In this document: one piece after another, positions 1 through 42,233 of the stretch | Layout of the letters: the number at the start of each line of letters is the position of its first letter | Position numbering within the stretch: the first letter of the stretch is position 1 | DNA from: a virus | Virus record (IMG/VR): IMGVR_UViG_3300009705_000026 | Coordinates: 1-46,990 of that record | Reading direction: 5' to 3' (one strand) | DNA: 46,990 nt | The notes under the pieces: generated by a model | The model's database searches: none | What the model was told of the DNA's origin: nothing | Seen by the model: the letters and a program-made list of their open reading frames with translations, nothing else | Program-made: the position numbers and the translations under genes

Positions 1-306
1 ACAAGACACGCTGCTATATCTATATATGATGGTAAAGAGATAGATACCTATACCAAGGATACCCCTTGTACTTATGGTATACAGTTTACGCTACTATATG
101 ATGAAACACTAACAGGTAGACAGAACCCAGCACTTAATATGACCGTTCTGATGCGTTCTAATGACCTCTGGTATGGTTTCTGTAATGATCAGTACTGTTT
201 TGCACAACTACAAAAATTAGTTGCTAAGAAGCTATCTGTTGAAGTGGGTACATACTATCATTTTGCTACTAATTTACATTTATATAATAATAAATTAAAC
301 AATTAA
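1..306 (+). CDS. Thymidylate synthase-family pyrimidine methylase/hydroxymethylase, C-terminal part (5' end outside window)
   Basis: The reading frame is open from base 1 and stops at 304-306, leaving 101 residues. It matches the C-terminal half of the ThyA family: the catalytic Cys in PCTYGIQF (visible residue 23), the phosphate-binding RSND (52-55), and the late NLHLY with His93 and Tyr95. Aligned without gaps on E. coli ThyA from the RSxD motif to the HxY motif, the position of substrate-reading Asn177 is Asp63, exactly 30 residues before His93 as in ThyA. Asp at this site is known from T4 dCMP hydroxymethylase and shifts specificity to dCMP. I therefore favour a dCMP hydroxymethylase over a dTMP synthase, but the N-terminal folate and substrate residues are missing. 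It is the first visible gene of the rightward nucleotide arm, 5 bases before the next gene. Confidence 0.82.
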   Translation, partial: TRHAAISIYDGKEIDTYTKDTPCTYGIQFTLLYDETLTGRQNPALNMTVLMRSNDLWYGFCNDQYCFAQLQKLVAKKLSVEVGTYYHFATNLHLYNNKLNN

Positions 307-311
307 AAAAT

Positions 312-1118
312 ATGTATTATTTATATCACATACCAGGTAAAAAAATAGGTGTAACAAGTAATCTTAATACAAGGGTTACACTTATACAAGGTTATAAAGA
401 GGGAGAGTACGAAGTTCTTGATTCTAGCGACGATATAGATTATATATCTGATTTAGAGATAGAGCTTCAAAAGTCTTACGGCTACAAGGTAGACATGAAA
501 AAATACAATGAATTATTTAAAAAATCTAATCAAATGAAAATAAACGCGACAGAACAAACGTCCACGTTTCCCTATCCTATAAATAAACTAAAAGAAAACC
601 TTTTAGACAATAAAAATCTTATTTGGAAGACAGATCACGGACTATTTAAGTTAAATGATAAAAATATAAACTGGATAATAGGTAATGCTAAAGTATCTAT
701 GTTTAATGATAACAGATCTTATATATACAACAAAGCTCTTGCTTCATATATTAAAGACGACTTAGATAAAGCAATTCAAAACCCATGGGATTTACCTATA
801 AACCAAAACAATAATTATACCTTTACTTTGTTTGATAATATAAGACAATGGGCTAAGGATAGAGGTATATACGATAAAGGTGATGCTAAAACTCAATACA
901 TTAAACTACAAGAAGAGTGTGGAGAACTAGCAAAAGCTTTGCTTTCAGACGATGAACCAGAAGTTGTGGATGCTATAGGAGATATAGTTGTAGTGTTAAC
1001 AAACTTAGCAGCTATAAGAGGATATCACATAGAAGCTTGTATTGACTCTGCTTATAGAGTTATCAATAAACGTACAGGTAAAATGGTTAACGGAACATTC
1101 GTGAAAGATGAAAATTAG
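312..1118 (+). CDS. GIY-YIG-like domain fused to MazG-like nucleotide pyrophosphohydrolase
   Basis: This 268-residue protein has two recognisable ends. Residues 1-62 (YYLY, KIGVT, Arg21, then EIELQKSYGY) look like a compact GIY-YIG-type fold, as in many marine phage proteins. Residues 171-255 are all-alpha MazG-like: the metal-binding EECGE (201-205) is followed by EVVDAIGD (217-224), the ExxE...ExxD arrangement that binds Mg and hydrolyses NTPs to NMP and pyrophosphate. The middle (80-165) is unassigned. The domain pair suggests a nuclease-like or nucleic-acid-sensing module tethered to a dNTP-cleaning module; the N-terminal activity is uncertain because the catalytic Glu is not clearly placed. 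The end overlaps the next MazG-like gene by 11 bases, so the two are probably translated together. Confidence 0.75.
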   Translation: MYYLYHIPGKKIGVTSNLNTRVTLIQGYKEGEYEVLDSSDDIDYISDLEIELQKSYGYKVDMKKYNELFKKSNQMKINATEQTSTFPYPINKLKENLLDNKNLIWKTDHGLFKLNDKNINWIIGNAKVSMFNDNRSYIYNKALASYIKDDLDKAIQNPWDLPINQNNNYTFTLFDNIRQWAKDRGIYDKGDAKTQYIKLQEECGELAKALLSDDEPEVVDAIGDIVVVLTNLAAIRGYHIEACIDSAYRVINKRTGKMVNGTFVKDEN

Positions 1119-1359
1119 AACAGAAGACAAAATAGTTCAAGCTGTCTTAGCTAAGATGGATGAGCGTAGTTTAATAGGTCAAAAAAAGTATGGCGCTACC
1201 ATGATGGAAGAGATTGAAGGTGAAAAGAAAGATCTTAATCGTTTTCTAGTAGACGTACAAGAAGAGCTTATGGATGCTTTGCTTTATATTGAAGCTGCTA
1301 AACGTTGTTTAGATAACGAGGTTGAAGACCTATGGATAAATAGACTTCATGAAGATTAA
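1108..1359 (+). CDS. Small MazG-like helical pyrophosphohydrolase
   Basis: This 83-residue, mostly helical protein carries QEELMDALLYIE at residues 51-62, which resembles the second metal-binding helix (ExxD) of the all-alpha NTP pyrophosphatase superfamily. The preceding GQKKYG and DLNRFLVDV are typical of short phage members. A canonical first EExxE helix is less clear; MEEIEGEK (33-40) may contribute. It is likely to remove one or more nucleoside triphosphates. Its start overlaps the GIY-YIG/MazG fusion by 11 bases and its end overlaps the nuclease gene by 11 bases. Two members of one superfamily side by side suggest different substrates. The substrate cannot be told from sequence. Confidence 0.6.
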   Translation: MKIRTEDKIVQAVLAKMDERSLIGQKKYGATMMEEIEGEKKDLNRFLVDVQEELMDALLYIEAAKRCLDNEVEDLWINRLHED

Positions 1360-1923: not shown

Positions 1924-2079
1924 ATGAAATATAAAAATTGGGATAAGAATTGGGAATTAACCGTTGGGTTTTATCCTGGATTTATAATAGGAATGAGGAG
2001 TTATCCTCATACAGAATCTACACAACACGTTATATATCTACCTTTTGTAGATTTATGTTTAGAGATTTTTGAAGATTAA
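1924..2079 (+). CDS. Small conserved-type phage protein of 51 residues
   Basis: ATG at 1924 follows directly on the TAA of the preceding small gene, and TAA at 2077-2079 precedes the nrdB ATG by one base. The protein has WELTVGFYPGFIIGMRSY near its start and HVIYLPFVDLCLEIFED at its end, a pattern I associate with short uncharacterised proteins in marine phage genomes. Alternating hydrophobic and aromatic residues suggest a small beta-rich domain, not a membrane helix. Its tight fit between two genes supports its being real. Its place just before nrdB hints at a link to nucleotide metabolism, but no function can be assigned. Confidence 0.6.
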   Translation: MKYKNWDKNWELTVGFYPGFIIGMRSYPHTESTQHVIYLPFVDLCLEIFED

Positions 2080-2080
2080 T

Positions 2081-3049
2081 ATGGGATTATTTGATGAAAG
2101 AATACCTTACAAGCCCTTTGAGTACCCGGAGTACTATACTGAGGGATGGCTTAAACAAGCTCAAGCGTTCTGGCTCCACACTGAGATATCTATGTCAAGT
2201 GATGTTAAGGATTGGAACGAAAGGTTAACACCTGAAGAAAAAAATTTAGTTGGCAATATCTTATTAGGTTTTGCTCAGACTGAATGTGCTGTGTCAGATT
2301 ATTGGACACAGAAAGTTGTATCATGGTTTCCGAAGCATGAGATTCAACAAATGGCCATGATGTTTGGATCACAAGAAACGATTCATGCTGTAGCCTATAG
2401 TTATTTAAATGAAACCCTTGGTCTTGAAAATTTTGAAGCGTTTTTACAAGATGAAGCAACAATGAAACGCTTTGATAATCTAGTTAGTTATGATGGAAAT
2501 AAATCCAGTGGAATTGCAAGAAGCCTTGCTATCTTTAGCGCCTTTGCTGAAGGGGTTAGTCTTTATTCTGCTTTCGCTGTGTTATATTCTTTTCAACTCA
2601 GAAATCTGTTAAAAGGAGTAGGACAACAAATGAAATGGAGTGTAAGAGATGAATCTCTACATTCAAAAATGGGGTGTACCCTATTTAGACACATGTGTAA
2701 AGAAGATAATAATTTATTAAAAGAGTGTGAAAAAGACATATTGGATGCAGCCTCAGCAATGCTTGAAGCAGAAGAAAACTACATTGATAAAATGTTTGAA
2801 CTTGGAGATATCGAAAACCTTAAAGCCTATGACCTTAAGCAATTTATCAGAAAAAGACTCAATGAAAAAATCCTCGAGCTCGGGTACGAGCACCACGGGA
2901 AGTACTTTGAATTTAACGAAGACGGAGCAAAAGCTCTTGATTGGTTCTACCATCTTACCGGGGGGCATACTCATACTGATTTTTTTGCTGTTAGGCCTAC
3001 TGATTACTCGAAGGCTAACGAAGGAGAGGATTTTGAAGATATTTGGTAA
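2081..3049 (+). CDS. nrdB: Ribonucleoside-diphosphate reductase class I beta subunit
   Basis: This 322-residue protein (start chosen at ATG 2081, not an upstream TTG at 2069 inside the previous gene) is the radical-generating subunit that works with NrdA to make dNDPs. All six di-metal ligands are present: Glu68, Glu99 and His102 in ETIH, Glu157 in AEGVSLYS, and Glu191 and His194 in RDESLH. Tyr106, four residues after His102, matches the radical Tyr122 of E. coli NrdB, so it should be a tyrosyl-radical enzyme. The C-terminus ends in acidic-aromatic DFEDIW, suited to docking on NrdA. Bases about 2855-2970 use noticeably more G/C-ending codons than the flanks. It abuts the oxygenase-like gene (TAAATG), and nrdA lies three genes downstream. 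Confidence 0.95.
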   Translation: MGLFDERIPYKPFEYPEYYTEGWLKQAQAFWLHTEISMSSDVKDWNERLTPEEKNLVGNILLGFAQTECAVSDYWTQKVVSWFPKHEIQQMAMMFGSQETIHAVAYSYLNETLGLENFEAFLQDEATMKRFDNLVSYDGNKSSGIARSLAIFSAFAEGVSLYSAFAVLYSFQLRNLLKGVGQQMKWSVRDESLHSKMGCTLFRHMCKEDNNLLKECEKDILDAASAMLEAEENYIDKMFELGDIENLKAYDLKQFIRKRLNEKILELGYEHHGKYFEFNEDGAKALDWFYHLTGGHTHTDFFAVRPTDYSKANEGEDFEDIW

Positions 3050-3634
3050 ATGATATATATAAAAGACAATTTTTTAAGTAAAACTTTATTTAATAAGTTA
3101 AACAAAAAGTTAATTAAATTTAAAAAAGTTGACATGAGTGATGGAGATTGTGTGTTATACGTAATTGAATCACCTAAAGAACTAACAGATCATTTTAAAA
3201 ATCTTATTGAAAAAATTGAAGGTAAAAAAATAAAAATGATTATGTGCGGTTTTAGACAATCACAAAAAAATGAGGATGATGTGTTGAGAATACATTCTGA
3301 TCTACATATTCATCCTGATCAATCTGATTTTCCTGAAAGAGCCGGTGTGTTGTATATGAGTGATATACCTAAAGATTTAAAAAAAGAATTAACAGGCACT
3401 GCTTTTTGGGACCATGAAACACATGGAGACAATAACAAAGGATCTATTGATATACACAATGAAACAATGAAAAACTGTGCTGATAAATCAAAATGGACTT
3501 TAAGATCTGTAATAGGTCATAAACAAAATAGATTTTTATCATATGATAGTAATTATTTTCATAGCAAATACCCTAACAAAAGCATAGATAAAAGAAAAGT
3601 ATGCGTAATGTTTTATAAATATGAGAAAATGTAA
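3050..3634 (+). CDS. 2OG-Fe(II) oxygenase-like (prolyl hydroxylase-type) protein
   Basis: In the 194 residues a plausible facial triad can be read: His82-x-Asp84 in RIHSDLHIH, and a distal His171 in NYFHSKYP, followed by Arg182 in DKRKVCVMFY, which would bind the 2-oxoglutarate carboxylate. The HxD...H...R order and spacing of about 90 residues fit the double-stranded beta-helix dioxygenases common in marine phages. Such enzymes hydroxylate protein side chains or nucleobases using O2 and 2-oxoglutarate. The substrate is unknown. It sits directly after nrdB and overlaps the next gene by 14 bases. Because the operon is otherwise about nucleotides, base modification is possible, but peptidyl hydroxylation is the more common role for this family. 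Confidence 0.7.
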   Translation: MIYIKDNFLSKTLFNKLNKKLIKFKKVDMSDGDCVLYVIESPKELTDHFKNLIEKIEGKKIKMIMCGFRQSQKNEDDVLRIHSDLHIHPDQSDFPERAGVLYMSDIPKDLKKELTGTAFWDHETHGDNNKGSIDIHNETMKNCADKSKWTLRSVIGHKQNRFLSYDSNYFHSKYPNKSIDKRKVCVMFYKYEKM

Positions 3635-3975: not shown

Positions 3976-4212
3976 ATGAAAGAACAAACTTTAATTGAAA
4001 TGGGTAAAAAAGTGGACTCTTTAATAAGAGTATCACAAAAACTAATACAAGAAATTCAACAAATAGATACGTTAGCTCGTGGAACAATTACAGCTTTACA
4101 AATGTTTATTGGTGAAAAAGAGTGGAAAAAGTTAGTTGAAAAAATGAAAAAAACTGAAGAAGCTAGAGATAAAAAAATAACAGAAAAGAAATTAGATTTA
4201 AATGTGGAATAA
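3976..4212 (+). CDS. Small coiled-coil hypothetical protein
   Basis: This 78-residue protein is highly charged and helical. Heptad-like hydrophobic positions occur in MGKKVDSLIRVSQKLIQEI and again in the Lys/Glu-rich C-terminal half (EWKKLVEKMKKTEEARDKK). There is no signal peptide or membrane segment. It begins one base after the zinc/membrane protein gene and its end overlaps the nrdA start by 11 bases, so its translation is probably coupled to that of nrdA. A structural or partner role is plausible, but no family is recognised. Confidence 0.6.
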   Translation: MKEQTLIEMGKKVDSLIRVSQKLIQEIQQIDTLARGTITALQMFIGEKEWKKLVEKMKKTEEARDKKITEKKLDLNVE

Positions 4213-5920
4213 TGATTGGATCAAAGGAGAAGATTACCCTAGTTGGGGCAATACTGATGTATATAAAAAAACTATTAGTGGAGGATATTTATTACAGGGT
4301 GAGTCGCCAAAAGAAGCCTACATGCGTGTATCAAAAGCTGTTTCAAGACGTCTCTATAAACCTGAACTAGCAGATACATTTTTTGAATACATATGGAATG
4401 GCTGGTTGTGCTTAGCATCACCAGTTCTTTCTAACACTGGAACAGACAGGGGTTTACCTATTAGTTGTTTTGGTATAGACGTTGCTGATAGTATCAGTGA
4501 CATAGGTACAAAAAACCTAGAGATGATGCTACTTGCTAAACAAGGCGGAGGAGTTGGTGTCGGAATTAATATGATAAGACCCGCCGGAGCTAAAATAACA
4601 GGTAATGGAACATCAGATGGAGTTGTCCCTTTTTGCAAGATCTATGACTCAACTATACTCGCAACCAATCAAGGGTCAGTACGAAGAGGGGCTGCATCCG
4701 TTAATCTCACTATCGAACACCCTGATTTCCTTGACTGGTTGGAGATCAGAGAGCCTAAAGGCGACGTCAACAGACAATCTCTTAACTTACATCAGTGTGC
4801 TGTCGTTGGCGATAAGTTTATGCGAAAACTCGAAGCCGGAGATTCAGATTCACGGAATAAGTGGTCCAAGTTACTCCAAAAACGTAAAGCTACTGGAGAG
4901 CCGTATATCCTCTTTAAAGGAAATACAAACAAAGCTAATCCAGATGCTTACAAGTCGAACAGTTTAAAAGTACACATGACTAACATTTGTAGTGAGATAA
5001 CGCTCCATACAGATGAGAATCATAGTTTTGTGTGTTGTTTATCTAGTTTAAACCTAGCTAAGTATGATGAGTGGAAAGACACTAATCTTATTTATGATAG
5101 CATATGGTTTTTAGATGGAGTTATGGAAGAGTTTATACATAGAGCTAAAGGATTACGGGGATTTGAAAATGCTGTTAGATCTGCTCAAAAAGGTAGAGCT
5201 GTAGGCTTGGGAGTTTTAGGATGGCACACATACTTACAAGAAAAAGGTATACCATTTGAAGGGCTATTGTCACAGTATGAAACGCGTAGAATATTTAGTC
5301 AGATCAAGATAGAGTCTGATAGAGCTAGTAGAAACCTAGGTGATACTTACGGTGAACCGCTGTGGTGTACAGGCACTGGTATGCGTAACACTCATTTAAG
5401 AGCTATAGCACCTACAGTTAGTAACAGTAAGTTGTCTGGTAATATATCACCCGGTATAGAGCCTTGGGCAGCTAATGTATTTACAGAGCAATCAGCTAAA
5501 GGTACTTTTATTAGAAAGAATCCTACTTTAGTTAAGTTTTTACGTAAACATAAATTAAATACTGAAAAAATATGGGATAAGATATTAAGAGATGGTGGAT
5601 CAGTTCAAGGTATAAAAGAACTAAATGATCTTACATTTACTAATGATGTCCCAGCTAAAGATGTATTTAAAACATTTAAAGAGATAAATCAATTAGAATT
5701 AGTAAATCAAGCAGGAATTAGGCAACAGTATATAGATCAGTCTGTTAGTTTAAACCTAGCTTTTCCTTCAGAGGCTACACCTAAATGGATCAATAAGGTA
5801 CACTTAGATGCATGGAAAAAAGGTATTAAGACCTTATACTATATGAGGACAGAATCTGTCCTTAGAGGTGACATAGCGGCTGCTGCGATGGACGAAGAGT
5901 GTTTGTCCTGTGACGGGTAA
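4202..5920 (+). CDS. nrdA: Ribonucleoside-diphosphate reductase class I alpha subunit
   Basis: The 572-residue catalytic subunit reduces ribonucleotides using the radical from NrdB. Visible active-site features are Cys89 (ISCFGID), Asn261-x-Cys263-x-Glu265 (NICSEI, with Cys263 as the thiyl radical site), Cys278 in VCCLSSLNL as the second redox Cys, Tyr546-Tyr547 (TLYYMRTES) as the radical-transfer pair, and a C-terminal CLSC (567-570) for re-reduction. It is about 190 residues shorter than E. coli NrdA and lacks the N-terminal ATP-cone, so dATP feedback inhibition through that domain is absent, a frequent phage trait. Codons in about 4620-4960 are visibly more G/C-ending than on either side. 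No phage thioredoxin or glutaredoxin is seen in the window. Confidence 0.96.
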   Translation: MWNNDWIKGEDYPSWGNTDVYKKTISGGYLLQGESPKEAYMRVSKAVSRRLYKPELADTFFEYIWNGWLCLASPVLSNTGTDRGLPISCFGIDVADSISDIGTKNLEMMLLAKQGGGVGVGINMIRPAGAKITGNGTSDGVVPFCKIYDSTILATNQGSVRRGAASVNLTIEHPDFLDWLEIREPKGDVNRQSLNLHQCAVVGDKFMRKLEAGDSDSRNKWSKLLQKRKATGEPYILFKGNTNKANPDAYKSNSLKVHMTNICSEITLHTDENHSFVCCLSSLNLAKYDEWKDTNLIYDSIWFLDGVMEEFIHRAKGLRGFENAVRSAQKGRAVGLGVLGWHTYLQEKGIPFEGLLSQYETRRIFSQIKIESDRASRNLGDTYGEPLWCTGTGMRNTHLRAIAPTVSNSKLSGNISPGIEPWAANVFTEQSAKGTFIRKNPTLVKFLRKHKLNTEKIWDKILRDGGSVQGIKELNDLTFTNDVPAKDVFKTFKEINQLELVNQAGIRQQYIDQSVSLNLAFPSEATPKWINKVHLDAWKKGIKTLYYMRTESVLRGDIAAAAMDEECLSCDG

Positions 5921-5927
5921 AAATAAT

Positions 5928-5954
5928 GAAGGGAGACCGTTATGATCTCCCTTC
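5928..5954 (-). terminator. Hairpin terminator between converging arms
   Basis: A perfect 9-bp inverted repeat (GAAGGGAGA at 5928-5936 and TCTCCCTTC at 5946-5954) encloses a 9-base loop. Read leftward, the stem is followed by ATTATTTTTACC, a T-rich tail typical of intrinsic termination, so it probably ends the long leftward transcript that finishes with the endolysin gene. Read rightward, nrdA ends 8 bases before the stem but the T-run is missing. A second, weak GGG/CCC hairpin followed by six T at about 5972-5996 could serve the rightward direction. The 83-base gap holds no convincing gene. Confidence 0.75.
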
Positions 5955-6003
5955 AATTGCAGGAACTTTTGGGGGTGGAAGCCCATTTTTTCGTGTTCCT
6001 TAT

Positions 6004-6357
6004 TTAATATGTCCACATTATGTCTGGGTCTTTATCTGGGTCTGCGTCAACATGAATAAATGTACCCGCTACCCCTATACGATTAAACCCAACGTCTAGT
6101 AAGCAATTTACTAAATGATATCTATCTCTTGAAGTTCTACAAGAAATATCAGCAGCCCATCCACCAAGGTGAGCGCTATTTTTTACTCCACCAACTTTCT
6201 CATTATGAGATTTAGTTCTATAACCTGAGGTTATAACTATAGCTTTGTCAAACTTTCCACGAGCTTCATCCAACATATCTAATACATGCTGCTTCATAGC
6301 CTTACCACTACCTAGGTGATCTGGACTATCAAATTCTGTTATGTTAAAATATTGCAT
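6004..6357 (-). CDS. Endolysin, M15-family metallopeptidase
   Basis: This 117-residue enzyme has the zinc-site pattern of M15 peptidases: His63 in SAHLGGWAADI with Asp70, and His102-x-Asp104 in FIHVDAD. The TSGYRTKSHN loop (43-52) is also typical of this group. Related enzymes cut peptide bonds in the peptidoglycan stem, as D-Ala or L-Ala-D-Glu carboxypeptidases and endopeptidases. There is no signal peptide, so a holin should be needed for access to the wall. It is the last gene of the leftward transcript, and its ATG overlaps the stop of a 26-residue membrane peptide gene (TAATG). The role in host lysis is inferred from family and position. Confidence 0.9.
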   Translation of the reverse strand: MQYFNITEFDSPDHLGSGKAMKQHVLDMLDEARGKFDKAIVITSGYRTKSHNEKVGGVKNSAHLGGWAADISCRTSRDRYHLVNCLLDVGFNRIGVAGTFIHVDADPDKDPDIMWTY

Positions 6358-6437
6358 TATTTATTTAGTTTAATTCCAACTAAAAAACCAACTATAATAA
6401 CAATCAATATTACTATAGTAATTTCATTTGATGTCAT
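6357..6437 (-). CDS. 26-residue single-pass membrane peptide, candidate lysis accessory
   Basis: Reading leftward from ATG 6437, 26 codons encode a hydrophilic N-terminus (MTSNE), a hydrophobic helix (ITIVILIVIIVGFLVGI) and a basic end (KLNK), then TAA at 6357-6359. The stop shares a base with the endolysin ATG, so re-initiation would couple the two. The predicted topology is one transmembrane helix with a charged tail. The position between a two-TM protein and an endolysin suggests a pinholin-like, antiholin-like or lysis-timing role, but no family is recognised. No Shine-Dalgarno sequence is seen; the leader is A/T-rich as elsewhere in this phage. It is too short for most gene finders. Confidence 0.6.
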   Translation of the reverse strand: MTSNEITIVILIVIIVGFLVGIKLNK

Positions 6438-6443
6438 ATTTAG

Positions 6444-6821
6444 TTATTTAGTTTTACAATCACAATTATCTTTCCCGCAAGAACATTGATCACCAAAAAA
6501 AGTTAATTTTTGTATCATCTTTGCTTGCATTTCAATGATCATTTCTTCAAGTTGATCATTACGTTTTTCCATTTGATGAGTTATTGATTCTAATGACTCG
6601 TTTTTCTTTTGTAATTTAGTAACTTCATCCGGCTGTTGTCCAATTATGACATAAACGACGATTCCTAAACTGGAAACTAAAGTTCCCACGATCGCCACGA
6701 ATAAGTCTTTATTAACTGGTGGTATTTCTACATAACTTAAAAACATTAATAATAATATGATTAAAGTAAATATACCGGCCGCACCGATGTAATGACGCAT
6801 TTCTTTTTTTTCATTTTCCAT
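6444..6821 (-). CDS. Two-TM, coiled-coil membrane protein, holin-like
   Basis: The 125-residue protein has a charged N-terminus and two membrane helices (about residues 11-30 and 39-60). A coiled-coil stretch follows (63-105, with LQKKNESLE and MEKRNDQLEEM), and the tail has four Cys (CSCGKDNCDC, 113-122) that may bind metal or form disulfides. A helical hairpin next to an endolysin is typical of class II holins or of spanin/XhlA-like accessories. The Cys-rich end is unusual for a holin. It starts one base before the giant virion protein gene ends and lies six bases from the 26-residue peptide. A canonical 3-TM holin is encoded separately at 35601-35981, so this one may regulate lysis. Confidence 0.6.
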   Translation of the reverse strand: MENEKKEMRHYIGAAGIFTLIILLLMFLSYVEIPPVNKDLFVAIVGTLVSSLGIVVYVIIGQQPDEVTKLQKKNESLESITHQMEKRNDQLEEMIIEMQAKMIQKLTFFGDQCSCGKDNCDCKTK

Positions 6822-6822
6822 A

Positions 6823-9800
6823 TTAAACTCTTTTTTTAACTTTATATTTTTTTATTTTAGTTTTTCTTTGTTTAGATTTTTGTATACCAAGCTCCCACTC
6901 AGACCAACCAGCTAAAGATGCTATTCTTTGCCAAACCTGTAGTTTTGAATCACTTGAATTTTTAATATTATTTATTTTCTTAATTACTCTATCTAAAGGA
7001 ACGTTAGTTGTTGCGGCTATTATTTGACCGGCAGCAAGATATGCTGGATTTTCAATAGACCAACCTTTTGTCATCATATCTTTTTTATTCCATGAGAATG
7101 ACCGACCCGCTGATCTTAATTTACCTACTTTAGAAGATATAGGTGGTGATATTTGTAAAATCTCTTTTTGTAACACATCTTGATACTTAGGCGATTTTTT
7201 ACCTGATTCTTGATTTAATCTTAAAGCTACATTTTTTAACACTGAAACAACAGCACCAGCAAGTCCTGTACCACGTAGAACACTATCAGCCATACCGTTA
7301 GCTACGTTAACAGCTCTTTTTTCTTTTTCATCTTCATCTTCATCTTCAAAAGCTAAAGCAAACAAAGCTTGCTGCATAGCATTAAATATTAAATTCTGTG
7401 CAATACCATAGTATATTATTTTAGATATGTTTGTTTTAGCATCACCTCGCCGATTCTTAAGATCAATAGCAGCTTTTTTTATTAATCTAGCATACTGAGC
7501 TGGAGTGTTAGCAAAGGCTAGTATAATACGCCCTAGCGGACCAGCTTGTTGTTGACTAATTCTATCAGGTCTACTAGACTGCTGAGATTCTTCTGCGGTC
7601 TCTCTAAAATCTTGAAAAGCCTGAGTTTCAGCATCTTTTTTAGACATACCTTGTTTTTCTAAAGCTTCCAATCTGTTTCTATAAAAAGTAGAACCTCCTG
7701 AAGCTATAGCAAAACTATCTGCTATTTGTGTAGGTAAAAATCCTAATCTAAGTAAACCAGCAATAACCCCTTTTGGTCCACCTTTTTTAGCCATTTCGGC
7801 TATATCAGCTTCGTTTACGTTAAGTTTTAAACCATCACGTCTTTCAACTAAAAAGTCTGAGTTAAATAATTTCTTAAAATCAGACCAATATTGTTTTTGA
7901 TTAGCAAAAGCTTTACCAGCTGCATATATATTATTATCTCCAAAGTTTATAAAGTTAATTGCTGATATAGTTTGAAGTACAGCTGATCTAGTGTTAAAAA
8001 ACATAATAGCACCAATAGAGTTTGTTAACCAGTCTGTAACTCTACCTGTTAAAGTATCACCGCCAAATGATCTGTTTTTACCAGTTTTCATTCTTTGTAA
8101 ACTACTTTCTAAAGCATTACGATAAGACTTACCATAAGCAGCCTCTAGTTTGTTTAAATTAGCTTCGGTAAATATTTTATCAACGTTTTGTTGCCATTGC
8201 TCTAAAAACTTAGCTCTTTTAATAGTATTAATACCTTCCATTAAGTCTGTAGTAATATTACCAGCTAACCAACTTTCGCTAGGTTTTGCATATTGATCAC
8301 CTTTTTGTAGTTGCATTAGTTCATCTGCAAAAGATCTTAATTCATTATTATTTTCTATAAAATTTTTAAGTTCTTTTATATCTGTTTCAGACATACCTGG
8401 AATATTTGTACCTTGCTTATTCCATATGTAAACTCTAATAGCTTGTTCTTGTGTAAAATTTTCACCAGGTAATTTTTTCTTTAATGTTTTAGGTACAACA
8501 TTTAATTTATTTTTAAGAGCTTTAAAATCATTACCAAGCGCAACTCTAGATCTTGATATATTATCCATTGCTCTTGAAAATGGATTTAATAAATGAGCTT
8601 TATACCAAGCCATTTGACTATCACCTATTTTACCCTTACCTAGTGTTTTATATAATAAACCTACAAAATCTTCAGCTGATGGTGGTATAAACCAATCAAA
8701 CTTACCTTTACTAGAGCCTACTACTTCTGCTTTAACTTTAGAGTATGTTTTTTCTGATGCAATACCAGTTTTATTTTCAATTATATCGTTGAAATCTTTA
8801 TCAAGACTCAATGAATTAGTAAAATTTGATTCTTGTTTATTATTAAACTTATCAATTAAATTAAAATTATTTAATATTTCACTAGTAGAAAATTTAGGTG
8901 ACTTACTATATAACGATTCTTCTTGTACTTCTTGAGGTACAATAGCAGGACCTATTTTTTTATTGTATTCCGCTTTAAGTCTTTCAACACTTTTTATACC
9001 TGCAATATCCGCACCAGCATTATTTACACCAAAAGTTTCTGCAACAGTTTTACCTGTTTCTAATTCTAAATTATTAGGATCAATACCAAATCCGTTTTCA
9101 ATAGTAGCTACATTAAGATTAAAATACCTAGCCCATATATTATCATTTAAAGTAAAACCTTCTGGGGTACTTTTTATGTAATTAAAAGGTTTTCCATCAA
9201 TACCTATACCTTTTAATTTATTATCATCAAGTTTAGATAAAATACCTTGCATGTAATTTCTTTCTATACCTTTGAAGTTTTTATCAACTGTTCCACTAAC
9301 GGCTTGTTGAAATAAATATTTAGCAGCTAAAGAAGCTGGTAGTGTGTGTTCTTCTACTATCTCTACACCAAGTATATTTTTAGCTATAAACTTCATAGGA
9401 GCTGAAACTCTAACAAAACCATTTTGATGACCACTAGTTTTAGATAAAATACCAATGATATATTTAGCATTTTTAGAATCATCTTTCATCATTTGTTCAA
9501 AAACTTCAAACATAGCCTTTAAACCTCTTAACTTAGCTGCGTTTTGCGCTTTAAGCTCGTTGCTTTGCCATAATGTTTCTAAAAACTTATTCTGTACGGT
9601 TCTTTTGTTTCCTTTACCAGAAGTAAAACCTTGCTTATAAAACATAACTTTCATGTCTGCTAGTTGTTGTTTAGACACAGTTGGACTTTTATGATCTTTT
9701 TTAGCTTGATATTTTGCTCCTTCATTGCCCGCCTGTTTAGAATCTTTAAAAAAGAAAGACTCACTATTACTTATTTTGCTCCAGTCTGCTTTTTTATAAT

Positions 9801-33514: not shown

Positions 33515-33786
33515 TATTTAGATCTCCCCTCTGCAAAACCTTTAAAGTTTGCGCCTTTATCTTTTTTAGAACTTTCTTTTAACATACTTTCCTCTTCTTC
33601 TATACGTGTTAGTATTTCAAAAGCATCAAAGATAGCTAATTTTTTTGTAGCCGCTGCATTTTTTAATCTATCAGCAGAAATATCTTCTTCTGAATCTACA
33701 ATTTTTTCTTTTGCAACTTTAATTAATTCCTCTACTGCTTTTTGCCCAGCTTGGATTATATTTAATTTCGTTTCCTTTGTGTTCAT
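33514..33786 (-). CDS. Putative terminase small subunit-like protein
   Basis: The 90-residue helical, charged protein (NAAATKKLAIFDAFEILTRI, residues 43-62) directly precedes terL and shares its boundary base, the normal place for a small terminase. The N-terminus (NIIQAGQKAVEELIKVAKEK) could form the first helices, and the C-terminus is basic (KDKGANFKGFAEGRSK). No helix-turn-helix is obvious, so DNA recognition cannot be shown from sequence. Its first 68 bases overlap the end of the tandem GroES-like gene in another frame, a large overlap for this genome. The name rests on position and size. Confidence 0.5.
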   Translation of the reverse strand: MNTKETKLNIIQAGQKAVEELIKVAKEKIVDSEEDISADRLKNAAATKKLAIFDAFEILTRIEEEESMLKESSKKDKGANFKGFAEGRSK

Positions 33787-34336
33787 ATTTAATTACAATA
33801 TCATTTGATTCCATACAATATAAAAGTTGCTTATCAACAACAAACTCAAATTCTCGCTTAGGTTTAAATCCTACCACGTCTCCTTCTGTTATTTCTAGCA
33901 CTTCTAATGAACTATTACTATACTTTAATATACCAATGTTCTTTTTTAATTTATTATCCTTAAATTCATTCTTTTCATAAAGTGGTTTTACAAAACAAAA
34001 ATTTTCATTTGTTTTCCACTCATCATTTCTTTTATATAAATATATTTGAGAAGGCATTGCAAAGTATAAATCATCTTTAAAAAACTTAGATCCATTTACT
34101 GATTTGCCTTTCATATCATAGTATCTTCTAAATATGTTATGATGTACTATAACTATGTCTCCTTTTTTAATATAAGTTTTTATTCCAAGTGGAACACCGA
34201 TAACTTTAGCAGTTCTATTAATGAATTTATGATCTGAAATACTAGAATTAATAATTAATTCTTTATCATCAACATTTATTTTATTATTATATCTTTTACC
34301 AATAGGCTGTATTATAAACTGGTAAATGCTGTTCAT
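33719..34336 (-). CDS. Tandem GroES-like co-chaperonin protein
   Basis: The 205-residue protein looks like two GroES-type barrels in a row. The first carries FIIQPIGKRY (7-16) and RTAKVIGVP followed by IKKGDIVIVHHN (56-67), matching the GroES strand order in which GDIVIF precedes the roof loop. The second carries NIGILKYS (133-140), ITEGDVVGF (149-157), and EFVVDKQLLYCMESNDIVI (164-182), close to GroES EVLIMSESDIL. A typical GGIVL mobile loop is absent. It lies immediately before the packaging genes rather than beside groEL. It may cap the phage or host GroEL chamber in place of GroES, for example to fit large virion proteins. The fold call is by eye. Confidence 0.65.
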   Translation of the reverse strand: MNSIYQFIIQPIGKRYNNKINVDDKELIINSSISDHKFINRTAKVIGVPLGIKTYIKKGDIVIVHHNIFRRYYDMKGKSVNGSKFFKDDLYFAMPSQIYLYKRNDEWKTNENFCFVKPLYEKNEFKDNKLKKNIGILKYSNSSLEVLEITEGDVVGFKPKREFEFVVDKQLLYCMESNDIVIKYEHKGNEIKYNPSWAKSSRGIN

Positions 34337-40435: not shown

Positions 40436-40692
40436 AATACCACTACGACATCCTGTAATTTTATAACAGTAAACTTTTCTTTGTTAAACTCTATACCATG
40501 ACCAGCATGTTTATCATAATATATTTCATCTTTTTCTTTAAGACCTTTTATATCATTACTAACAGAGACAACACGGGCTTTTTTATATCTTATGTCCTCC
40601 CTATCTTTTTCAATAAGAATTAAACCACCTTTTGTTTCATCAGTGGTTACTTTCTCACTTTTAATTATTATATTGTTCCCTATAGCTTTCAT
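40432..40692 (-). CDS. groES: Co-chaperonin GroES-like protein
   Basis: The 86-residue protein (start chosen at ATG 40692, which overlaps the groEL stop by ATGA; a longer frame would start inside groEL) has the GroES plan: IGNNIIIKSEKV, a mobile-loop region with TKGGLILIEKD, KKARVVSVSND, KEKDEIYYDKHAG and FTVIKLQDVVVVL at the end. The GGLIL hydrophobic element should bind the GroEL apical domain. It would close the folding chamber. The gene lies after groEL, the opposite of the usual bacterial groES-groEL order. A second, larger GroES-like protein is encoded at 33719-34336. Confidence 0.82.
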   Translation of the reverse strand: MKAIGNNIIIKSEKVTTDETKGGLILIEKDREDIRYKKARVVSVSNDIKGLKEKDEIYYDKHAGHGIEFNKEKFTVIKLQDVVVVL

Positions 40693-42233
40693 TGTCTTAA
40701 GTTGTTTATAACACAATCAGTTGACAATATTGTTGTAGCTACAGATACCGCATTTATTAATGCACTTTTAGTAACAAGTAAAGGATCTATAATACCATTT
40801 GTAATCATATCTACAGAGTTACCTGTAACTACATTTAATCCTACACCTTTTATTTTTGGTAATATATTCGGGAATTTAATACCGGCATTGTCTAATATTA
40901 CTTTAAATGGTGATTTAATTGCATTAAGCAATACTTGTTCACCTTTATTTTTAGCTTTTATATTTTGCATAGCATTTAAAAGAGCAATACCACCACCGGG
41001 TACAATCCCTTCTTTTATTGCTGCTTTTGTAGCACAAATAGCATCTTCTACTCTATCGGACTTTTCTTTAAGTTCTATATCAGAATTAGCCCCTACTTTT
41101 ACTATCGCTATTTTAGCTGATAGTCTTGCGAGTCTTTTTTCTAACATAATTATCTTACTGGCTATTGGCCCATCTGATAATTCTTTTTTAATTTGGGTAA
41201 TAATACTTAAGATTTCTTCTGAAGGTTCACCCACTTGTATTACAGTATCTTTTTCTGTAGTAGTAGATCTTAAGCATGTACCCAACATTTCTGGTTGTAT
41301 AAGATCCATATCATCACCTAGATCTTCATTTATAACTGTGGCCCCGGTTAACATAGCTAAATCATCGAGTTGTTCTCGTTTGTTTACACCATAAGTAGGA
41401 GCACCTATTATATTTACTTTAATGTTGCCTTTTGTTTTATTCATAGCTAATGTAGCGGCCACTGGCGTTTCTACGTCTGCTATAATAAGTAAAGGTTTTT
41501 TGTTTTTAATAACATATTCTAAAACAGATTGTATCTGTCTTATGTTTTCAACCGGTGATTCTATTAATAATACTGCCGGATTTTCTAATTCACATGATTT
41601 CTTCTCTGGATTGTTTACAAAATGAGGATTAGCCATCCCTTTATCATATTGTACCCCATCAACTATCTCTACTTCTGTTTCTGCTTCAGGAGAATAATCC
41701 ATCATAACTATACCTGTTTGACCAACAGATCTAAATGCATCACCAATAATTTTTCCAAGTTCAGGATCATTGTTGGTTGATATCGTAGCTATATGATCTA
41801 TCATATCGCCCTTAACAGGTAAGCTATTTTTCTCTAAATACTTAACTACTTTCTTAGTAGCTGAGTTAATACCATCTTTAAGTGCCCTAGAACTTACTTC
41901 TACACCTATTTCTGATGCTTCTTTAAGAATTGCATGGGCTAATACAGTTGCGGTTGTGGTACCGTCTCCTGCTTCATTTACTGTTTTGCGGGCTGCTTCT
42001 TTTAAAAGGGTGGCCCCCATATTTTCTACTGGATCTAATAAGACTATTGAGTTTGCAACTGTAACCCCATCTTTTGTAATTAATGGTCTACCTGCATCAT
42101 CTTCTAGTAGTACACATTTACCGCTAGCCCCTAATGTGGAGCTAACAGCTTGTGTGAGTTTATCAATTCCTTTAAACACTTGATTTTGAGCACTTTGCCC
42201 AAAATTAAGATTCTTGACTATTAAGTCTGACAT
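40689..42233 (-). CDS. groEL: Chaperonin GroEL
   Basis: The 514-residue protein keeps the ATPase motifs of group I chaperonins: TLGASGK (33-39), ITKDGVTVA (52-60), GDGTTTA (89-95, with Asp90 matching Asp87 of E. coli), RVEDAICATKAA, VPGGGIAL and the late GIIDPL. It is about 34 residues shorter than E. coli GroEL and lacks the Gly/Met C-terminal tail. The Pro of the usual TLGPKG is Ala-Ser here. It should fold phage proteins, perhaps capsid or large tail proteins that do not suit the host machine. It is the first gene of a tightly coupled operon with groES, the winged-helix gene and a small acidic gene. Base use is like its neighbours, with no sign of recent transfer. Confidence 0.95.
   Translation of the reverse strand: MSDLIVKNLNFGQSAQNQVFKGIDKLTQAVSSTLGASGKCVLLEDDAGRPLITKDGVTVANSIVLLDPVENMGATLLKEAARKTVNEAGDGTTTATVLAHAILKEASEIGVEVSSRALKDGINSATKKVVKYLEKNSLPVKGDMIDHIATISTNNDPELGKIIGDAFRSVGQTGIVMMDYSPEAETEVEIVDGVQYDKGMANPHFVNNPEKKSCELENPAVLLIESPVENIRQIQSVLEYVIKNKKPLLIIADVETPVAATLAMNKTKGNIKVNIIGAPTYGVNKREQLDDLAMLTGATVINEDLGDDMDLIQPEMLGTCLRSTTTEKDTVIQVGEPSEEILSIITQIKKELSDGPIASKIIMLEKRLARLSAKIAIVKVGANSDIELKEKSDRVEDAICATKAAIKEGIVPGGGIALLNAMQNIKAKNKGEQVLLNAIKSPFKVILDNAGIKFPNILPKIKGVGLNVVTGNSVDMITNGIIDPLLVTKSALINAVSVATTILSTDCVINNLRQ

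Follow-up and report, generated by a model that had tools for sequence, protein, structure and literature searches.

Phages evade bacterial restriction enzymes with DNA that contains 5-hydroxymethylcytosine (5hmC). Within the thymidylate synthase (TS) superfamily, the residue at position 177 (numbering of E. coli ThyA) sets the base, with Asn leading to uracil and Asp to cytosine (PMC5175136, PMC6400193, PMC8670742), and the replacement Asn177Asp alone turns a thymidylate synthase into a producer of 5-methyl-dCMP, according to work cited in PMC8670742. Hydroxymethylation has signatures of its own. The study of the ternary complex of T4 dCMP hydroxymethylase (dCH, gp42) names Asp145, three residues before the catalytic Cys, where TS has Leu, together with Ser94 and Tyr96 that interact with it; Asp145 activates the water for hydroxymethylation, and the T4 enzyme lacks the C-terminal tail (PMC6400193). 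Position 147 has also been named as differential (PMC8670742). The Ser of the RSND motif (Ser167 in E. coli, Ser169 in T4) favours deoxyribose; it is Ala in MilA, the CMP 5-hydroxymethylase of Streptomyces, and the A176S/K133R double replacement switches the substrate of MilA to dCMP (PMC5175136). The combinations read as follows: Leu at -3 with Asn177 in ThyA, methyl-U; Asp with Asn in SPO1 gp29, hydroxymethyl-U; Asp with Asp in T4 gp42, hydroxymethyl-dC; and the latter pair with Ala176 and Lys133 in MilA, hydroxymethyl-CMP.

The locus described here opens a stretch of 46,990 nucleotides of viral DNA (the window; IMG/VR virus record IMGVR_UViG_3300009705_000026, positions 1 to 46,990). The gene fragment at its 5' edge (Table 1) and its relatives share with T4 gp42 the Asp at -3, the Cys-Thr pair, the equivalents of Ser169, Asp171 and Asp179 (the last in the context GF.ND), the Ser94-Asn-Tyr96 segment and the lack of a TS tail. 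They differ from it in that identity is 23-26%, the family has no tail helices past HxY, His, Gln or Lys stands at T4 Arg124, and no linked glucosyltransferase is recognised. MilA, the closest solved structure by sequence and by fold, likewise has Asp at -3 and at 177, but it carries Ala176 and Lys133, associated with ribose preference, and a large C-terminal extension, whereas the family of the fragment has Ser, Arg and no extension. The dUMP hydroxymethylase SPO1 gp29 belongs to the same hydroxymethylase class, with Asp at -3 and the Tyr, but has Asn at the pyrimidine position and a one-residue insertion just before it.

Similar gene content is found in contigs with experimentally demonstrated modified cytosine recovered by MetaGPA (Yang et al. 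2021, PMC8670742), which combine TS-like enzymes, mostly with Asp177, with PRA-PH, dCMP deaminase and ligase. The present case resembles them in that Asp177 TS-like enzymes co-occur with PRA-PH (MazG-related), dCMP deaminase and DNA ligase, and differs in that no carbamoyltransferase is recognised. The closest cultured relative is gene 00032 of Bacteroides phage BF486P2, annotated as deoxycytidylate 5-hydroxymethyltransferase, which is 51.9% identical over the fragment (tblastn) and has the same motif, GFCNDQYCF. BF486P2 departs from the window phage in that a MazG match is absent from the next two genes and a second paralogue and a dUTPase are present. The two hydroxymethylase-like paralogues of BF486P2 (5811-6572 and 8644-9324) are divergent; both have Asp at -3 and 177, and Leu replaces Glu58 in the first.

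The enzyme class is already known; what is unusual in the widespread aquatic phage lineage studied here is the fused nucleotide-clearing gene beside it. Taken as a whole, the signatures make it very likely that a phage dCMP 5-hydroxymethylase is encoded here, the fragment being its C-terminal half, with a mechanism like that of T4 gp42 and a MazG partner, and probable that the phage DNA contains 5hmC.

Table 1. Features of the window that bear on the dCMP hydroxymethylase-like gene and its operon
Positions	Strand	Feature	Basis or remark
1..306	+	3' part (101 codons) of a dCMP-hydroxymethylase-like gene, thymidylate synthase family	PF00303; full-length sisters L002/L003
58..60	+	Asp20, -3 from catalytic Cys; equivalent of T4 Asp145	Asp in T4 gp42, SPO1 gp29, MilA and relatives
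67..72	+	Cys23 nucleophile (TGT 67-69), then Thr24 (His147 in ThyA, Thr in T4 gp42)	
154..165	+	RSND motif, residues 52-55; Ser = Ec Ser167 / T4 Ser169	
187..189	+	Asp63 (GAT), pyrimidine-reading position = Ec Asn177 / T4 Asp179	
277..306	+	HLY motif (residues 93-95), then six residues only (NNKLNN); no TS C-terminal tail	
312..1118	+	268-aa protein: GIY-YIG-like N-terminal domain (~1-60) and C-terminal MazG dNTP pyrophosphohydrolase domain (~170-266)	
1108..1359	+	83-aa conserved protein, same operon	beside the pair in relatives; weak unknown PHROGs
2069..3049	+	ribonucleotide reductase small subunit, same early nucleotide operon	PF00268 E=1.6e-56
4202..5920	+	ribonucleotide reductase large subunit	PF02867 E=3.5e-90

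Signature residues of the fragment and its relatives

The open reading frame lies in frame 1, is open at the 5' end, and encodes 101 amino acids ending in ...NLHLYNNKLNN, with a TAA stop at 304-306. It matches Pfam PF00303 (Thymidylat_synt, E=1.4e-12) over profile positions 126-216 of 266, and about 120 codons at the 5' end lie upstream of the window. The viral record begins at base 1 of the window, and the 5' half was therefore read from sister phages. In IMG/VR, 534 coding relatives were detected, and 80 of them were fetched for comparison. The closest, L002 and L003, have a full gene of 223 amino acids that is about 83-85% identical to the fragment; Glu58 and Ser94/Tyr96 are assigned to the window gene from such 85%-identical sisters, its own 5' half being outside the window. 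Between the window and L003, dN is 0.083 and dS 1.23, which indicates strong purifying selection.

The fragment aligns without gaps to ThyA, T4 gp42 and all 80 relatives. The first-pass annotation had noted a catalytic Cys with RSND and HLY motifs, a gap-free alignment with ThyA from RSxD to HxY, and Asp in place of the base-reading Asn, and these observations are borne out: the motifs stand at residues 23, 52-55 and 93-95, R52-Y95 spans 43 residues as does R166-Y209 of E. coli, and Asp63 aligns with E. coli Asn177 and T4 Asp179 in multiple alignments. In these alignments, which include ThyA, T4 gp42 and other phage enzymes, the SPO1 type has Asn at the pyrimidine position. Asp occupies it in 80/80 viral loci, which, together with the purifying selection, means that it is neither chance nor a sequencing artefact. 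The adjacent Asn62 is unlikely to be the reading residue; the Asn-Asp pair recurs in T4 gp42 (GFRND), where the second residue is the documented Asp179.

The earlier proposal that the product is 5-hydroxymethyl-dCMP, and that the phage may have modified cytosine, was drawn from this Asp, and that argument was incomplete, since Asn177Asp by itself gives a dCMP methylase and so argues only for cytosine. The proposal itself gains from further signatures. Asp precedes the catalytic Cys by three residues in 41/41 nonredundant relatives and 80/80 loci, where ThyA has Leu143, and accompanies Asp177 in all 80 loci; Thr follows the Cys, as in T4 (this Thr and the two Asp residues hold in 80/80 or 41/41 relatives). 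Ser94 and Tyr96 are present in 42/42 full-length relatives including L003, at positions that are upstream of the window in this phage. The missing tail and a MazG gene that adjoins the enzyme in almost every relative speak for hydroxymethylation as well. The family retains the folate residues Glu58 and Asp169, and the alignment gives Met where TS has Trp83. Ser53 and Arg2 of the fragment stand at the MilA Ala176 and Lys133 positions, and the resulting set (Asp, Asp, Ser, Arg) is that of the T4 enzyme. A single departure counts against this assignment: of the phosphate-binding arginines (T4 Arg123/Arg124), the first is Arg, and the second, equivalent to E. coli Arg127, is His in the fragment and His, Gln or Lys in the family, although SPO1 gp29 has Gln as well.

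Comparison with solved proteins points the same way at the level of sequence. With L003 as query, phmmer gave 1.5e-16 for MilA, 1.2e-11 for T4 dCH and 1.4e-10 for the best TS; the family profile gave 1.4e-22, 7.9e-22 and 4.3e-20, respectively, and hhalign 1.2e-19 for T4 gp42 versus 5.7e-15 for ThyA. The AlphaFold model of L003 (pLDDT 86.6) has MilA as its best PDB fold match (TM 0.86), followed by TS and T4 dCH at similar levels, with T4 dCH below several TSs, so that TS and dCH cannot be told apart from the fold alone. The branches of a small tree had too little support to show where the family stands with respect to T4 gp42 or ThyA, well-supported forks being confined to the hmU-type group.

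One related contig, G007 (loci L098-L101), has two near-duplicate replication cassettes and is probably an assembly chimera or an overlap of two strains. Its second TS-like copy was considered as a separate thymidylate synthase and rejected, being an Asp177 member with its own flanking cassette.

The adjoining MazG-domain gene and the phage genome

In T4, gp56 removes dCTP and yields dCMP (as noted in its record), and the pair of gp42 and the dCTPase gp56 resembles the present pair of enzyme and MazG gene. The C-terminal half of the 268-residue protein matches MazG (PF03819, E=4e-5, above the cut-off) and PRA-PH (E=1.7e-4), and the protein has a MazG-like PHROG match (E=3.6e-31); E201, E202, E205, D220 and D224 are invariant, and the structure model has a mean pLDDT of 89. 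In 73 of the 75 loci with enough sequence, the 1.5 kb downstream of the enzyme gene include a MazG homologue, usually as the adjacent gene. The pairing spans several phage lineages, and some of the backgrounds have no close relative of the primase-helicase or reductase genes of the window phage. Some loci (L016, L020, L025, L058) have a stand-alone MazG of 100 amino acids beside the enzyme, and in one lineage (L044) a dCMP/cytidine deaminase gene (7729-8142) sits between the two. The MazG domain has no detectable similarity to T4 gp56, used as a single sequence (hhalign probability 2.5%). From its domain and position, the protein is probably a dCTPase partner that hydrolyses dCTP to dCMP.

The N-terminal half has weak matches (E 0.02-0.08; T5orf172, 0.084) to T5orf172 and MUG113, families of the GIY-YIG group. 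Its first ~60 residues are modelled as strand-strand-helix-strand-helix, and Arg21 and Glu49 are invariant in 32/32 sequences. A Foldseek search of PDB with the full fusion gave weak domain matches only (E >= 0.007), with no GIY-YIG structure among the matches listed. In the window's lineage the fusion gene is conserved as the one that follows the hydroxymethylase, and the N-terminal half of its product, which resembles a GIY-YIG nuclease, is a candidate domain of that kind. The GIY-YIG enzymes include T4 DenA, a nuclease that cleaves cytosine DNA. By this analogy, the two genes might form a compact cassette for cytosine replacement, in which the hydroxymethylase acts with a fusion that would destroy dCTP through its MazG half and cleave unmodified (host) cytosine DNA through its GIY-YIG-like half; we consider this idea rather improbable. 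If it were true, the jobs of T4 gp42, gp56 and a DenA-type nuclease would be packed in two genes and used by several aquatic phage lineages, some of which add a PLP enzyme or a methyltransferase for tailoring.

The source of L003 is a contig of 63.7 kb (G001), largely colinear with the window. Each end of this contig carries a part of one GroEL gene, so it is probably a circular map cut open and close to complete; we treat it as a probable near-complete sister genome. Between them, the window and this sister have recognisable genes for portal, terminase, GroEL, GroES-like, holin, reductase, primase-helicase, Erf and sigma-factor proteins, and the sister has an ATP-dependent DNA ligase gene. 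In the window, GroEL and the GroES-like protein are encoded at 40689-42233 and 33719-34336. A protein of 194 amino acids (3050-3634), encoded amid the nucleotide-metabolism operon between the two reductase subunits, matches a "minor coat protein" PHROG (7e-11), an annotation that may mislead. Pfam and PHROG searches recognised no DNA polymerase in the window or sisters, among them the 63.7-kb genome, which has primase-helicase, ligase, Erf and SSB-like genes, no hm-dCMP kinase in the window and sisters including G001, and no carbamoyltransferase in the window or sisters. The earlier remark that the window has no sugar transferase holds at the same sensitivity, and no glycosyltransferase was found in the near-complete sister either.

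A few relatives come from bacterial assemblies, in metagenome-assembled genome bins, several of them of Bacteroidota (Flavobacteriaceae, Sphingobacteriaceae, Saprospiraceae), with Aliivibrio and others also represented. Among cultured phages, those of Bacteroides fragilis are the nearest relatives, and the two observations together make a Bacteroidota host plausible for the window phage.

Predicted reaction and alternative readings

By homology to T4 gp42, the Cys is expected to attack C6 of dCMP, while Asp63 would bind and protonate N3 of the cytosine. Methylene-tetrahydrofolate would be attached to C5 and then eliminated, and a water activated by the -3 Asp would add to the exocyclic methylene, giving 5-hydroxymethyl-dCMP and tetrahydrofolate; hydride transfer is not expected, since the enzyme lacks the C-terminal tail of TS. 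The MazG-domain protein would probably keep cytosine out of the DNA and at the same time supply the substrate, and kinases, probably those of the host, would raise hm-dCMP to the triphosphate. Virion DNA of the lineage would then probably carry 5hmC, with no recognisable added sugar.

A variant of this explanation, which does not exclude it, is that hm-dCMP is made but the virion DNA contains a further tailored base, or little 5hmC. In two related loci, a gene for a PLP-dependent (PALP) enzyme (L025, 6758-7657) or a class I methyltransferase (L031, 6884-7645) ends at or just before the start of the hydroxymethylase gene, and these are possible base-tailoring enzymes; many window genes, moreover, have no known family in Pfam or PHROG. 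Such a tailoring gene is, however, not recognised in the window lineage or in the sister genome, and we judge the variant rather improbable.

A much smaller chance remains for a dCMP methylase, in which Asp177 would select dCMP and a completed hydride transfer would yield 5-methyl-dCMP and 5mC in DNA. It has a precedent in the Asn177Asp thymidylate synthase mentioned above (as cited in PMC8670742), but Asp rather than Leu at -3, Met in place of Trp83, the presence of Ser94/Tyr96 and the lack of a tail to close over folate for hydride transfer all argue against it.

Two readings are less likely still, at very low and about equal probability. An enzyme acting on dUMP, whether a thymidylate synthase supplying thymidylate or a dUMP hydroxymethylase leading to 5hmU DNA, would fit the common superfamily and the annotation of many phage homologues as thymidylate synthase; yet Asn177 is absent from every relative, and the hmU-type enzymes have Asn with the one-residue insertion. 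A CMP (ribonucleotide) hydroxymethylase like MilA/BcmA is suggested by the place of MilA as top PDB match in both sequence and fold comparisons, but Ser and Arg stand at the two positions whose replacement turns MilA to dCMP (PMC5175136), and the gene is in a phage operon with ribonucleotide reductase.

The least likely reading is a flavin-dependent dCMP oxygenase of TS fold such as PDB 9iqc ("Monooxygenase dependent on riboflavin with dCMP and FAD", solved with both ligands per its title, and for which a literature search found no paper), which is among the fold matches (rank 35) but scores 7.6e-14 against the family profile, versus ~1e-22 for MilA and T4 dCH, and is disfavoured by the retained Glu58 and Asp169.

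Possible hydroxymethylated cytosine in aquatic phages

The dCMP hydroxymethylase reading can be tested now in the cultured Bacteroides phages that have a close homologue. DNA with 5hmC resists many restriction enzymes and attracts modification-dependent defences, and sequencing methods in which cytosine is read or deaminated can be biased by it. The 534 IMG/VR matches, all environmental viral stretches, probably encode the same enzyme, so aquatic phages distant from T4 may commonly have hydroxymethylated cytosine.
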